Shown here: piece by piece, positions 4,761 through 11,008 of the stretch | How positions within the stretch are numbered: position 1 is the first letter of the stretch | How the letters are laid out: each line of letters starts with the position of its first letter | NCBI GenBank assembly: GCA_002720635.1 | Contig: PBJD01000008.1 | Coordinates: forward strand, 1-44,267 | Length of the DNA: 44,267 bases | DNA from: Flavobacteriales bacterium | GTDB taxonomy: Bacteria; Bacteroidota; Bacteroidia; Flavobacteriales_C; GCA-002722245 | Reading direction: 5' to 3' | Translations under genes and position numbers: made by a program | Notes under the pieces: generated by a model | Seen by the model: the letters and a program-made list of their open reading frames with translations, nothing else | Databases searched by the model: none | What the model was told of the DNA's origin: nothing

Positions 4761-5321
4761 ATGGAATCTTTACTTCAAGGACATTGGCCCTGGTATATCA
4801 CGGGAATACTTTTTGGTTTAATTGTACCGCTCTTACTATTTGTTGGCAATAAACCTTTTGGAATTTCAAAATCACTAAAAGATATCGCTTCTTTGTTACC
4901 ACAAAATAGATTTCACCAAATAAAACATGATTTAAAACCCAATTTTTGGCGTATTTATTTTGTTGTTGGAATTATCATAGGGGGTTACTTAGCGGTGTTG
5001 TTTTTAAAAGGAAATGCCACTATAGATTTATCAAATTCTACTAAAAGTGATTTAGAAAATATAGGAATTGTAAGCTTTGATGGATTGGCACCTTCTCAAA
5101 TATTCAATTGGGAGTTTTTACTATCCACTAAAGGATTATTAATTATGGTACTTGGGGGATTTCTGATTGGCTTTGGTGTCCGTTACGCAAATGGTTGTAC
5201 TTCCGGTCATGCGATTATGGGACTATCGATTTTTAGTTCTTCCTCATTAATTGCAGTCTTGGGTTTTTTTGCTGGAGGACTTTTAATGACGCATATACTC
5301 TTTCCCCTACTCTTTAATTGA
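4761..5321 (+). CDS. YeeE/YedE family transporter, first half
   Basis: A 186-residue membrane protein with about five hydrophobic helices. It carries the YeeE/YedE (DUF395) signature FGVRYANGCTSGHAIMGLS, with the conserved Cys in the membrane re-entrant region. In characterised relatives such as TsuA, similar Cys-containing segments pass thiosulfate; other members move other sulfur compounds. In many Bacteroidota the transporter is split over two adjacent genes, and that is the case here: the second half begins right after this stop. The substrate is inferred as a sulfur species. No sulfurtransferase, rhodanese or sulfur-oxidation gene is seen nearby. Confidence 0.92.
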   Translation: MESLLQGHWPWYITGILFGLIVPLLLFVGNKPFGISKSLKDIASLLPQNRFHQIKHDLKPNFWRIYFVVGIIIGGYLAVLFLKGNATIDLSNSTKSDLENIGIVSFDGLAPSQIFNWEFLLSTKGLLIMVLGGFLIGFGVRYANGCTSGHAIMGLSIFSSSSLIAVLGFFAGGLLMTHILFPLLFN

Positions 5322-5326
5322 ATCTG

Positions 5327-5740
5327 ATGAAAAATTTAAAATACCTGGTAATTGGAACTTGGTTTGGAATACTTTTAACGAAGTCTGAGGCTGTATCCTG
5401 GTTTCGAATTCAGGAGATGTTTCGTTTTCAAGCATTTCATATGTATGGAATAATTGGGATGGCAGTAGTTGTGGGAATGATTTCTCTTTTGGTAATTAAA
5501 AAATTTAAAATCAAGTCTCTTAATGGAGAAAAAATTAATCCTGCTCAAAAACCACTTCAATTTAAATCCAACTTAATTGGTGGGTTTGTTTTTGGACTGG
5601 GATGGGCATTAACAGGTGCTTGCCCGGGTCCCATTTATGCACTTATTGGAAATGGGCTAATGGTATTTGTTGTTGTTTTAACGGCTGCTCTTATTGGTTC
5701 AATCGTTTATGATTTGATAAAAAAGCATTTGCCACATTAA
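5327..5740 (+). CDS. YeeE/YedE-type transporter, second half (DUF6691-like)
   Basis: The 137-residue partner of the preceding gene. It has four hydrophobic helices and a second copy of the signature loop, FGLGWALTGACPGPIYALIG, again centred on a conserved Cys. A TTG at 5318 in frame would create an overlap with the upstream stop. The ATG at 5327, five bases after that stop, gives the normal N-terminus MKNLKYLVIGTWFGILLTKSE, a start motif typical of this half. The two half-proteins are expected to assemble into one pseudo-symmetric transporter, and tight coupling supports equal expression. The intergenic stretch after it (5741-5844) holds only a weak AT-rich hairpin. Confidence 0.92.
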   Translation: MKNLKYLVIGTWFGILLTKSEAVSWFRIQEMFRFQAFHMYGIIGMAVVVGMISLLVIKKFKIKSLNGEKINPAQKPLQFKSNLIGGFVFGLGWALTGACPGPIYALIGNGLMVFVVVLTAALIGSIVYDLIKKHLPH

Positions 5741-7344: not shown

Positions 7345-8235
7345 ATGAAAAATATACTGATTGCCTTTTTAATTGTTTTCTTTTTTTGGGGATGTCGTAA
7401 AAAAGAGTGTTGTATTCCGGAAAACAATTATGACTATTCTTCAGAAATTCAATCCATTGTGCATAATGGTATTTCAAGGGAGTACTTGATTTACTTTCCT
7501 TCAAGTTTTAATGGTGCTTCTGCTGCCCCGTTAGTTTTAAACTTCCACGGATTTGGTGGTAATTTTAGTGAATATGCAGCATATACCTCTATGCGATCAC
7601 TTGCCGACAAAGAAGGTTTTATTTTAGTATATCCACAAGGGTCATTAATGAATGGATACTCCCATTGGAACCCTTCTTTACCAAGCCTTGAAAACAAAAG
7701 TAATGCAGATGATTTTGGGTTTATTGAGGCGTTAATTCAACAACTTTTGAATGATTATGTCATTGATTCAGAAAAAATATACGCGTGTGGATACTCTAAT
7801 GGCGGTATGATGAGTTTTGGTTTGGCCAACCACAAAAGCAATTTAATTGCCGCTGCCGCATCTGTATCCGGTACTATGCTGGAAACCGACAATACTCCTG
7901 ATCATCCCATGCCTGTTTTAATGATTCATGGGACATCGGACGGAGTTATTCCCTATGCTGGAAATAACGAGTATGCTTCTGTTGAATCGACTTTAGCTTT
8001 TTGGAGAAATTTTAACAGTACCGATAGTGTTCCCTATTCAAATAGCATTACCACTGGAGGCAACTCCATTGAATATGAATACTATTCTAACGGAAACAAC
8101 GGTGTTTCGGTTGAACATTATAAAATCAATCAGGGCGGGCACGAGTGGTTTGACCTTAACTATAATGGACAAAATACGGGGCAACTCATTTGGGAGTTCT
8201 TTTCTAAATACGATATCAATGGATTGAGAGAATAG
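7345..8235 (+). CDS. Lipoprotein esterase, LpqC/PHB-depolymerase-like
   Basis: A lipobox-like signal (FFFWGC, Cys17) suggests a lipoprotein. The mature part is an alpha/beta hydrolase of the LpqC/poly(3-hydroxybutyrate) depolymerase-like family: APLVLNFHGFGG oxyanion loop, YPQG, SHWNP, DDFGFIEAL, nucleophile motif GYSNGG (Ser151), an acid region in MLIHGTSDG-like sequence (here MIHGTSDGVIPY), and a C-terminal GGHEWF His. Many members are feruloyl or acetylxylan esterases rather than true PHB depolymerases, so the substrate is open. It is on the envelope surface by inference, next to another hydrolase and a thioesterase. Confidence 0.9.
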   Translation: MKNILIAFLIVFFFWGCRKKECCIPENNYDYSSEIQSIVHNGISREYLIYFPSSFNGASAAPLVLNFHGFGGNFSEYAAYTSMRSLADKEGFILVYPQGSLMNGYSHWNPSLPSLENKSNADDFGFIEALIQQLLNDYVIDSEKIYACGYSNGGMMSFGLANHKSNLIAAAASVSGTMLETDNTPDHPMPVLMIHGTSDGVIPYAGNNEYASVESTLAFWRNFNSTDSVPYSNSITTGGNSIEYEYYSNGNNGVSVEHYKINQGGHEWFDLNYNGQNTGQLIWEFFSKYDINGLRE

Positions 8236-8347: not shown

Positions 8348-8716
8348 ATGAAAGCACATACAGCAAGTTTAATAAACGCAATACTCTTAATTACTTTGCC
8401 TCTTTGGGGGTATTTATCATCAGAAACACCTTCTATAACGGCCTTAATACCCGCATTTATAGGAGTTGCTCTATTAGGAATGAATTATGGAGTTAAAAAA
8501 GAAAATAAAATAATTGCTCATATAGCAGTTTTACTCACTTTAGTGATCCTATTCGGATTGATAAAACCTTTAATGGGCGCTTTAGGTAGAGGCGATGGTT
8601 TAGCAATAGGTAGAGTTCTTGTGATGATTATCAGTACCGTAATGGCTATGGTTTTCTTTGTTAAAAGTTTCATTGACGCCAGAAAAAGAAGAGAAAAAGA
8701 GGCTTCAGAAGCTTAA
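8348..8716 (+). CDS. Four-helix membrane protein, function unknown
   Basis: 122 residues with four predicted helices (roughly 6-24, 30-47, 55-77, 86-107), and a charged, Lys/Arg/Glu-rich C-terminal tail (RKRREKEASEA). A gentle Gly-rich loop PLMGALGRGDGLAIGR lies between helices 3 and 4. I do not recognise a characterised family; similar small membrane proteins occur in Bacteroidota. It is followed 44 bases later by two related membrane proteins on the same strand and may form a transcript with them. No soluble enzymatic domain is present. Confidence 0.75.
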   Translation: MKAHTASLINAILLITLPLWGYLSSETPSITALIPAFIGVALLGMNYGVKKENKIIAHIAVLLTLVILFGLIKPLMGALGRGDGLAIGRVLVMIISTVMAMVFFVKSFIDARKRREKEASEA

Positions 8717-8760
8717 GGTTCTGTAAAAGACAATCAAATAATAACCTTAATATTTCCGGT

Positions 8761-9561
8761 ATGCAGGAAGAGCATGGAACAAAAGTTCCTACAAATCAAC
8801 TTATCCGATACGCAATATTATTTTACTGGTCACTTTTCTGGCTTTTTAATATCGTTGATAAGTTTATTGGTGGCAGTTTATTCCTTTGGGTAGGAAGAGA
8901 CCGATTTGCTCAATTCCAAAAGTTTTTCGCTTCGGCAGGATTAGAGTCACCAATAATTGCCGATGCAGCCTTGATTATTGCTGCAGGACTCGAAGTTTTT
9001 GCTTTTGTTTTTTTCGCTGGAGCTCTAATTCATTTTTTACAGAGAAAACAAGAGTCGTCTCGTTCCTGGTTTTTTGCGGGGATTCTATTTACGTTGATTA
9101 CTTTCACAGTCTTTTCAATTGGTGACCATATTTTTGGTGATAGATTTGAACTTCTCGAACATACTTTATTCTGGTTTTTAACCCTTTTCTCATGGATTGC
9201 TTTTATACGCTTGAATAAAAACACGTCTCCCCAACCGTTATTGGATAAAAAGCAATTGGCTGCAGCTTCTCTTCTAGGAGTTTTATTGGTTTCTATAACA
9301 AGTATTTCTATTTTCAACTACAACTCAAATTACTTTTCTCGCAGAACAGACGCTCTCAATGCCGAAAAAGTGGGTGAAAATATTTACAAAGTTTCGTTTC
9401 CATTTTTAGGGGGTAGTACTGTTTTTGAAAAATCTATCGATAGATTTAAAAAAGAATACCCTGAAAAATCTATCAATCACATTTACACTGTACCAAATCC
9501 ACTTCGATTAAAGAAAGCGGATGGCTTAATTTTTTACATTTTAACTGAAGATAAAAAATGA
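8761..9561 (+). CDS. Membrane protein with C-terminal extracytoplasmic domain, paralogue A
   Basis: 266 residues with about five predicted membrane segments in the first 185 residues. A soluble C-terminal part of about 75 residues follows. The sequence contains a conserved-looking VGRDRFAQFQKFF and HIFGDRFELLEH, then ITSISI and FPFL. The next gene repeats these same landmarks in the same order, showing a tandem duplication followed by divergence. The N-terminal helices with LFWLFNIVDKFI are reminiscent of DoxX-like small membrane proteins, but the resemblance is weak and no function is claimed. Its stop overlaps the start of the next gene by four bases (ATGA), implying translational coupling. 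Confidence 0.8.
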   Translation: MQEEHGTKVPTNQLIRYAILFYWSLFWLFNIVDKFIGGSLFLWVGRDRFAQFQKFFASAGLESPIIADAALIIAAGLEVFAFVFFAGALIHFLQRKQESSRSWFFAGILFTLITFTVFSIGDHIFGDRFELLEHTLFWFLTLFSWIAFIRLNKNTSPQPLLDKKQLAAASLLGVLLVSITSISIFNYNSNYFSRRTDALNAEKVGENIYKVSFPFLGGSTVFEKSIDRFKKEYPEKSINHIYTVPNPLRLKKADGLIFYILTEDKK

Positions 9562-10337
9562 AGGAGAGAGCAATAGTTCGTTTTTCAATACTGATTTTCT
9601 GGACGTTTTTCTGGGGACTTAGTGTAGCGGATAAAATCATACCAGATGTACATAATTTATGGGTTGGAAAAGATTTCTTTGCATTATTTGTTAAATTTTT
9701 CGGATCCCTTGGACTTAAAAATCCAATTTTTGCTACTTCTGCTTTAGCTGTTGTCTCTGCTTTGGAAGTGATTAATTTTGTATTTTATTTACTGGCAATT
9801 ATCAACTTCTCAAAGAAAAAAGGAAATATCGCAGAAAAATGGTTTTTCAGAGCTGTTTTCGCATCTATGATATTATTTAGCTTGTTTTCCATTGCCGACC
9901 AGGTTTTTGGCGATCGATTTCAGCTTTTAGAGCACGGTTTATTTTGGCTGATTCTAATTGCTTCGTGGTTTTTGTTTAAATACGTTACAAATTCCGAAGA
10001 TCATGCAATTTCATTCAAAAATTCCAGGAGTTTTAAATTCACCGTATTGATTGGTTTTGTTCTTACTATTATTACATCCATTTCAATAGTTGACTTTTCC
10101 AACAAAACGTTTTCCAACGTAGATTCTCCTGTTACCGGAGAAGAAGTTGCTTCAGGCGTATTCAAGTTTAACTTCCCTTTCCTCGCAGATAAATTAGTTT
10201 GGGAAAAAACCATTAATACTTTCAAGGATAATCACCCTGAATTAAAAATAAATTACATTTATACAGGCCCGTCAGAATTGAACTCAAAAAAGAAAACTCA
10301 CTTATTGCTCTATGTTTTTACAGAAAAAAACAAATAA
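9558..10337 (+). CDS. Membrane protein with C-terminal extracytoplasmic domain, paralogue B
   Basis: 259 residues, clearly related to the preceding protein. Shared positions include LWVGKD.FALF.KFFGSLGL, SIADQVFGDRFQLLEHGLFW, TIITSISI, FPFLADK and YIYTGPS, in the same order and spacing, but with many substitutions between. The protein has about five membrane segments and a soluble tail ending in a Lys-rich stretch. It starts inside the stop of paralogue A (ATGA) and so is very likely co-translated with it. This invites a heterodimer hypothesis, which the sequence alone cannot confirm. It ends just before a hairpin and T-run. Confidence 0.8.
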   Translation: MKERAIVRFSILIFWTFFWGLSVADKIIPDVHNLWVGKDFFALFVKFFGSLGLKNPIFATSALAVVSALEVINFVFYLLAIINFSKKKGNIAEKWFFRAVFASMILFSLFSIADQVFGDRFQLLEHGLFWLILIASWFLFKYVTNSEDHAISFKNSRSFKFTVLIGFVLTIITSISIVDFSNKTFSNVDSPVTGEEVASGVFKFNFPFLADKLVWEKTINTFKDNHPELKINYIYTGPSELNSKKKTHLLLYVFTEKNK

Positions 10338-10387: not shown

Positions 10388-10427
10388 AAAAAAGAACAAC
10401 AAATTTTAACTCTGTTGTTATTTTTTT
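10388..10427. terminator. Likely bidirectional terminator
   Basis: A 7-base inverted repeat, AACAACA at 10395-10401 and TGTTGTT at 10413-10419, is flanked by an A-run on the left and a T-run (10421-10427) on the right. It therefore works for transcripts arriving from either side. It separates the tandem membrane paralogues (plus strand) from the cupredoxin gene (minus strand) and overlaps the cupredoxin stop codon. The stem is short and AT-rich, so the strength is uncertain. Confidence 0.5.
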
Positions 10428-11008
10428 ATCAATTTTCCCGAGACAGTTTCCTTATTGGCATTTATTATTTTATATAGATAAATTCCAACAGGCAGTTCAT
10501 CTGTTAGTAATTTATAATTGTCGTTAGTTATTAACTCATTAACTTCCAACTTACCTATTACGCTGTATAAATAAACCTCTCCTCCATTACAACCTTTTAC
10601 GAATACTGAATTTTGAAATGGATTAGGGAATATGTTTGAATGAGATGCATAATCTCGACCTTGAACAGAAGTATTGCTTTGCACTATTACTTTTCCCTTC
10701 ATTCCAGCATTAGCATGAGGATTACATTGAAAATCAAACTCTCCCGCAATTGAAAAAACATGTTTGTAAGTCCACCCGGAACCAACAGAATTACCAAAAC
10801 TCTCAGGGTTATTCGGAAATGTCTCTTGAGTCCCATTGATATTATGAGAACCGCCCGTGTTTATAAATGTTACCGTGTCACCAATTTCAATTGTTAATTG
10901 TGATGGCGAAAATGACATACCGGAAGTAGATATTGTATGATTTGTTTGAGCCGCAGAAATAAGGCTGAAAAGCAAAGAAAAAACCAAAGTGAAATTTTTG
11001 ATGCTCAT
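10418..11008 (-). CDS. Secreted cupredoxin (plastocyanin/azurin-like) with T9SS sorting domain
   Basis: A signal peptide (residues 1-20, ending SAAQ) precedes a single cupredoxin domain of about 90 residues. Type-1 copper ligands are visible: His55 (GGSHNING), Cys95, His98 and Met103 in FQCNPHANAGMKGKV. The last 70 residues look like a type A T9SS C-terminal domain: FPNPFQNSVFVKG, then GIYLYKI and the ending GKLIKK. So the protein is predicted to be exported through the Sec system, then across the outer membrane by the type IX system and released or attached. Blue-copper domains usually carry electrons; the partner is unknown. A 10-base inverted repeat lies about 60 bases upstream of the start. 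Confidence 0.93.
   Translation of the reverse strand: MSIKNFTLVFSLLFSLISAAQTNHTISTSGMSFSPSQLTIEIGDTVTFINTGGSHNINGTQETFPNNPESFGNSVGSGWTYKHVFSIAGEFDFQCNPHANAGMKGKVIVQSNTSVQGRDYASHSNIFPNPFQNSVFVKGCNGGEVYLYSVIGKLEVNELITNDNYKLLTDELPVGIYLYKIINANKETVSGKLIKK

Follow-up and report, generated by a model that had tools for sequence, protein, structure and literature searches.

The window analysed here, a stretch of 44,267 nucleotides (contig PBJD01000008.1) from the genome of a Flavobacteriales bacterium (GCA_002720635.1), carries on its forward strand two overlapping genes, here termed A and B, that encode paralogous predicted membrane proteins. The features discussed below are as follows.

8761..9561, + strand: gene A, 266 aa (open reading frame, AlphaFold model, relatives), with a predicted layout of five transmembrane (TM) helices, a short helix between TM1 and TM2, and a C-terminal beta-beta-alpha-beta-beta domain.
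8887..8928, + strand: WVGRDRFAQFQKFF of A, residues 43-56, in the short helix between TM1 and TM2; third by conservation (model, conservation).
9133..9174, + strand: FGDRFELLEHTLFW of A, residues 125-138, at the TM3-TM4 turn on the predicted periplasmic side; top conserved window (model).
9361..9558, + strand: C-terminal domain of A, approximately residues 201-266, predicted beta-beta-alpha-beta-beta (model) and periplasmic by helix count.
9558..9561, + strand: ATGA, shared by the stop codon of A and the start codon of B (sequence; overlap in relatives).
9558..10337, + strand: gene B, 259 aa, a paralogue of A with the same predicted layout (open reading frame, BLASTP to A, model, alignment).
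9906..9947, + strand: FGDRFQLLEHGLFW of B, residues 117-130, at the TM3-TM4 turn as in A (alignment, conservation, model).

The reading-frame coordinates and the 4-base ATGA overlap claimed in the initial annotation were both verified in the sequence. BLASTP aligned A with B at 41% identity across 254 residues with a single gap (E = 1e-68). The two proteins had been described as sharing a series of ordered landmark motifs while differing elsewhere; all of the landmarks were found, but the remainder of that description understated the relationship, as the similarity spans the whole protein. The gene overlap is also conserved in relatives. Among the 23 GenBank loci described below, 20 could be measured, with an overlap of -4 in 17 and -1 in 3; a second set of 29 pairs, which shares some members with the first and is limited to full-length proteins, had 26 that could be measured, with -4 in 21, -1 in 2, and -8 in 3. 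In the cell, A and B may be made together by translational coupling. An 8-base perfect inverted repeat (TTAAGGTT/AACCTTAA, 8713-8720 and 8743-8750) lies between the upstream gene and A; it was set aside because it is missing from the nearest relative, L004.

When A was used to scan GTDB species genomes, 23 GenBank loci were obtained, all titled as MAGs and labelled Flavobacteriales, Crocinitomicaceae, Bacteroidetes, or, in one case, Euryarchaeota. Many of the locus names suggest, in the analyst's reading, marine samples. The Euryarchaeota archaeon locus (L025; contig PBNL01000007.1) carries a pair and neighbours that match those of the Bacteroidota loci L021 and L022, and it is probably a mislabelled or misbinned contig. 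Homologues were found as pairs at several scales. Both genes were present in 22 of the 23 loci, counting one (L007) in which just the first 30 residues of B precede the contig end and two (L010 and L026) with a broken gene, and the remaining contig (L023) stops within A. In four MAG contigs (L010, L026, L156, and L160), some of which may represent one organism twice, one gene of the pair is broken, and assembly error cannot be told apart from decay. It should be noted that this locus search used A alone, so that a lone B could escape it, while the profile searches used both proteins. With a profile of both, a scan of the class found 4 of 395 genomes to be positive, all 4 with pairs, and a draw from the phylum found pairs in 2 of 395 genomes plus one chance match (G442; E = 5.7e-5), which covers the C terminus only and falls within a very long open reading frame for another kind of protein. 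A match at E = 0.27 in contig 34 of G000 was likewise dismissed. In the order to which genome G069 belongs, 28 of 199 genomes were positive; 27 of these had both genes, a few of them broken or cut, and the sole exception (G785) had a fragment at a contig end. The window's own order had the family in 2 of 10 genomes (searched with A alone), and a single A/B pair was found in the genome from which the window comes (size 1.95 Mb; completeness 77.8%). No intact lone copy was seen in the genomes searched either with A or with the two-protein profiles, some of which are the same organisms as the GenBank loci. Two sets of A/B matches were found in G851 (contigs C112 and C139), of which one is truncated by the end of its contig; the second set is possibly an extra copy or the product of a mixed bin.

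A tandem duplication with retention of both copies, as first proposed, agrees with the BLASTP similarity and with the phylogeny. When 36 A and 37 B sequences were placed in one tree, a single branch with support of 100/100 divides all A from all B, and the highest A-B identity (0.43) is lower than the lowest A-A (0.44) and B-B (0.46) identities, indicating that the duplication predates every sampled copy. Exchange of sequence between A and B was not seen in this set. The A and B subtrees are alike by eye, if not in every detail, with L172 placed differently.

The history of the pair departs from that of its hosts. In a tree of RpoB, in which G070 is a long branch, G069 falls within family f52 (95/95), while in the pair tree G069 joins G070 with support of 97/96 for A and 100/100 for B. 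These two genomes are 66% identical in RpoB and 62% identical in A, and the A of G069 is 46-49% identical to its counterparts in the four further f52 genomes included. Further, G772 and G882 belong to one genus and share 92% identity in RpoB versus 61% in A, and the window and G770 share 79% (A) and 78% (B), with the RpoB of G001, a near twin of the window, being 74% identical to that of G770. Other than the 79% and 78% for the window's A and B, these identities derive from a table of 15 genomes that gives pair identities for part of them; 4 rows have no values because exact-duplicate proteins had been removed or stood under a different locus name.

Gene neighbourhoods are similarly inconstant. 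Among 26 loci compared, the pair cluster was present in all 26, while the next most common neighbour cluster, an SDR that lies 1.7 kb downstream in the window, was present in 9, and a photolyase-like cluster was present in 8; since many of the loci are short, these neighbour counts are lower bounds. In other clades, the pair lies beside genes for PorP-like and thioesterase-like proteins, a desaturase-like protein, an M42-like peptidase, or a PHB-depolymerase-like esterase, where names outside the window were read by eye and family scans covered the window proteins. Because the neighbours differ between clades, the pair looks like its own unit, and gene context was dismissed as a guide to function. 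Together, the disagreement between the RpoB and pair trees and the lack of conserved neighbours suggest an autonomous bicistron that most likely undergoes horizontal transfer in one piece. A matched nothing in plasmid or phage records, and the 36 pattern matches that profile A3 produced in viral contigs included no relative, so that no vehicle for such transfer was found.

Several other genes in the window were recorded. At 4761-5740 (+), two overlapping genes of 186 and 140 aa each match Pfam Sulf_transp (YeeE/YedE type) and are apparently the split halves of a thiosulfate/selenium-type transporter. A PHB-depolymerase-like extracellular esterase is encoded at 7345-8235 (+; NCBIfam, 167.9 bits versus a cut-off of 150), and in locus L006 a relative of this esterase directly follows the pair with a 4-base overlap with B. 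In the window, the pair is directly followed, at 10418-11008 (-), by a plastocyanin/azurin-like copper protein with a T9SS sorting tail.

The initial annotation had regarded the proteins as members of an unrecognised family, and library searches concur, where absence refers to the libraries scanned: Pfam, NCBIfam, PHROGs, PADLOC, and PDB sequences. No significant match was obtained in Pfam (best weak row for A, Acyl_transf_3; E = 0.0033, 17 bits versus a cut-off of 31), NCBIfam (best weak row for A, PspM; E = 0.057), PHROGs (best E = 0.047), or PDB sequences (none with A and one at E = 0.5 with a profile), and the anti-phage defence models of PADLOC gave none for A or B up to E = 1. A clear match to a characterised transporter or quinone enzyme family did not emerge, nor was a catalytic signature of known families found in A or B. 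A search of open-licence papers by topic words found no published work on the pair, and the family is nameless.

AlphaFold models of A and B as single chains, built from 28 (A) and 42 (B) aligned sequences, are of moderate confidence (A, pLDDT 77.1 and pTM 0.66; B, pLDDT 77.6 and pTM 0.58). Both models have the same layout of five membrane helices, a short TM1-TM2 helix, and a beta-beta-alpha-beta-beta C-terminal domain. The small loops between TM2 and TM3 and between TM4 and TM5 are richer in Lys and Arg than the TM3-TM4 loop, as would fit a cytoplasmic N terminus. The TM1-TM2 loop (28 aa with about 3 Lys/Arg) and the C-terminal domain (about 78 aa with 10-11 Lys/Arg) are also basic, such that charge alone leaves the topology unsettled; the C-terminal domain is placed outside on the basis of the model and the helix count.

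Foldseek gave no match at E <= 0.001 with either model, and the H-NOX proteins in its top rows, with TM-scores of about 0.2-0.3, were dismissed. In VIA-align, the first row for both models was NACHO/TMEM35A (9h9e_B; Z 11.6), superposed over 130 (A) and 129 (B) of 133 residues with an rmsd of 3.2 and 3.5, respectively, and leading the next row by 2.0 (A) and 2.3 (B) Z units. Helical bundles reach Z values of about 13-14 by chance in this method, and values below about 13 may reflect a common arrangement. In Foldseek, NACHO ranked 15 for B (TMt 0.65) and was not among the best 50 rows for A. Since A and B are homologues whose models draw on overlapping alignments, the match of the second model is just a partial replicate of the first, and with a Z in the chance range and no significant Foldseek match, the likeness to NACHO is treated as a lead. 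At the level of sequence, PDB searches gave no match to NACHO up to E = 10 (phmmer with A; profile A3), nor was it retrieved by profiles A5 and A6.

Conservation was assessed over the 36 A and 37 B sequences, a set without exact duplicates in which near-identical MAG sequences remain. Underlying alignment A1 omits L014, L023 (cut by a contig end), and L026 (broken A); alignment A2 omits L007 (cut), L010 (broken B), and L023; and profile A3 comprises 28 rows picked by hand from the A1 and A2 rows. The motif FGDRFxLLEH had been singled out as the likely functional site in or next to the membrane. Over these sequences, the top 14-residue window is FGDRFELLEHTLFW (FGDRFxLLEHxLFW), with a mean frequency of the commonest residue of 0.923 versus a whole-protein mean of 0.583; the overlapping FSIGDHIFGDRFEL ranks second (0.869) and WVGRDRFAQFQKFF third (0.829). 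The motif is thus conserved in homologues and is the most conserved block, and in both models it sits at a helix-helix turn. Other conserved blocks in the alignments (FPFL, YTxP, and LKK/SKK) belong to the C-terminal domain. A total of 36 residues are invariant in 73 of 73 sequences, and the charged ones among them (A numbering: D33, K34, D47, E78, D122, D127, E133, and H134) are mostly found close to or at those ends of TM1-TM4 that are predicted to be periplasmic. Conservation is concentrated on one face in TM1 (p = 0.011), TM2 (p = 0.008), and TM5 (p = 0.002), marginally so in TM3 (p = 0.058), and not in TM4 (p = 0.39) or the short helix (p = 0.79). Cysteine is not conserved and is entirely absent from 10 of the 36 A sequences and 24 of the 37 B sequences.

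At 11 sites, A and B are fixed for different residues (>=95% in each): 4 in the TM1-TM2 loop, 2 in TM3, 1 at the end of TM5, and 4 in the C-terminal domain. Position 123 is His in 34 of 36 A sequences (Gln in the other 2) and Gln in all 37 B sequences, and position 130 is Glu in all 36 A sequences versus Gln in 35 and Thr in 2 of the 37 B sequences. The occurrence of His123 and Glu130 in A where B has Gln points to A as the likely active subunit, with B in a supporting role and partly degenerate, with the caveat that two A proteins carry Gln at 123 as B does.

The pair is always found together where both genes can be read and appears to have moved jointly between lineages; A and B are thus probably the parts of one two-part machine, and plausibly a heteromer. 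The overlap and co-occurrence are also compatible with two proteins that act in one pathway without contact. The reading preferred here, to which a probability of roughly one in three is assigned, is that A and B each provide one subunit of an obligate heteromeric complex in the inner membrane, with a polar pocket at its outer face. Each subunit would comprise a NACHO-like four-helix bundle extended by another helix and by a small alpha/beta domain in the periplasm. The eight invariant charged residues would line the predicted pocket at the outer membrane face, which most likely would bind or modify a small amphipathic ligand (a lipid, isoprenoid, or similar) of the outer leaflet, with A as the likely active and B as the supporting subunit.

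Other readings were weighed against the same data. That NACHO is the first structural row for both models invites the possibility that A and B form a NACHO-like membrane chaperone or assembly factor, which would hold another membrane protein while it is assembled, with the TM3-TM4 turn and periplasmic domain touching this client. A Z in the range of common helical bundles and the modest standing of NACHO in Foldseek argue against this, as do the absence of any constant client gene among the neighbours and the size of the NACHO chain, which at 133 residues and, as described in PMC9318448, four predicted TM helices is too short to account for the fifth helix and alpha/beta domain; this role is accordingly considered unlikely. 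A heteromeric channel or transporter of about ten helices for a small solute or ion, in which the invariant acidic and His residues form the path or gate, is about equally improbable. A self-contained module without fixed partners would suit a transporter, and the pair appears to be such a module, horizontally moved, with conserved charges in or beside the membrane. However, those charges gather toward one end, the two subunits share one predicted layout and thus form no inverted repeat, and no transporter family appeared among significant matches.

A quinone-linked oxidoreductase of the DoxX/DoxD kind acting on a sulfur compound, as does thiosulfate:quinone oxidoreductase, is very unlikely. 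By eye, A and B have a DoxX-like order of polar residues (a basic end of TM1, a Glu in TM2, and a polar end of TM3), and the coupled Sulf_transp pair lies 3 kb upstream in the window; however, sulfur genes were seen near the pair only in the window's genus, and the enzyme reading sits poorly with the absence of a conserved Cys. Profiles of DoxX, DoxX_2, and MauE gave no match at curated cut-offs for A or B up to E = 10. Among 28 members of the family, MauE was matched in 2 (best E = 0.087), and neither DoxX and DoxX_2 nor the DoxD/DoxA models of thiosulfate:quinone oxidoreductase (DoxDA) were among the best 25 of 26 families; DoxD/DoxA likewise gave no match to A or B up to E = 10. In profile-profile comparisons, with DoxX, DoxX_2, and MauE proteins taken from the same 40 related genomes and empty or partial rows filtered out, alignment A4 or the 73-row alignment matched these three families at 0.1-4.7%, versus 80-88% (77.7% once) among the three families themselves and 0.3-0.4% (CvpA) and 0.1-1.5% (reversed; top 1.45%) for decoys. 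One DoxX alignment reached 4.4-4.7% (E = 0.0086 at 4.7%), above all decoys and with the TM2 glutamates in register, but fell to 0.1% with a larger DoxX set. By sequence, A and B are not members of the DoxX family. Least probable of these alternatives, and only slightly so, is a light-related role (photoprotection or the handling of retinal or carotenoid) in sunlit waters. A photolyase-like gene, named by eye, is directly upstream of the pair in 7 of 26 loci and nearby in an eighth, and a rhodopsin gene was found in 19 of 28 genomes with the pair versus 76 of 171 others (Fisher p = 0.025, uncorrected for relatedness and completeness), an association that is only a hint of life in sunlit water. 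Against this, rhodopsin was unmatched in 9 of the 28 pair genomes, other clades have unrelated neighbours, and a promoter-like TAGATTAG was seen by eye between the photolyase-like gene and A in several such loci.

A further reading, slightly less probable than the preferred one, is that a family absent from the libraries searched forms an obligate, anciently duplicated two-subunit complex with NACHO-like bundles, an active and a pseudo-active subunit, and a biochemical activity unlike that of any known family, spread among Bacteroidota as a self-contained module. The retention of the pair and of 36 invariant residues among 73 sequences from several bacterial families points to a strong and specific function, one without a name in the libraries searched, in a pair known mostly from uncultured Bacteroidota. 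Because the pair is independent of its neighbours and spreads as a unit, the two genes alone may suffice in a laboratory host, making the question testable. If the NACHO-like fold is correct, A and B would constitute a bacterial, duplicated counterpart of a eukaryotic assembly-factor fold.

Among known systems, NACHO/TMEM35A (9h9e chain B), a eukaryotic assembly factor, offers the closest comparison, as the predicted four-helix bundles of A and B superpose on nearly its whole chain. Unlike NACHO, A and B add TM5 and a C-terminal domain, occur as a tandem pair, and have neither a sequence match to it nor a known client. NACHO is itself DoxX-like. As described in PMC12068001, it assembles pentameric ion channels. 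The DoxX, DoxX_2, and MauE families (PF07681, PF13564, and PF07291) are, like A and B, small multi-helix membrane proteins, in which, by eye, basic, Glu, and polar residues follow one another along TM1-TM3 in a similar order, but the motifs of A and B differ from theirs and are accompanied by an extra helix and domain. The sigma-2 receptor TMEM97 has polar residues inside its membrane bundle. Its structures (PDB 7m93 and 7mfi) were retrieved with the A model (Z 7.8 over 131 residues, in the background range) and were not among the best 50 rows for B, and no sequence link was found.
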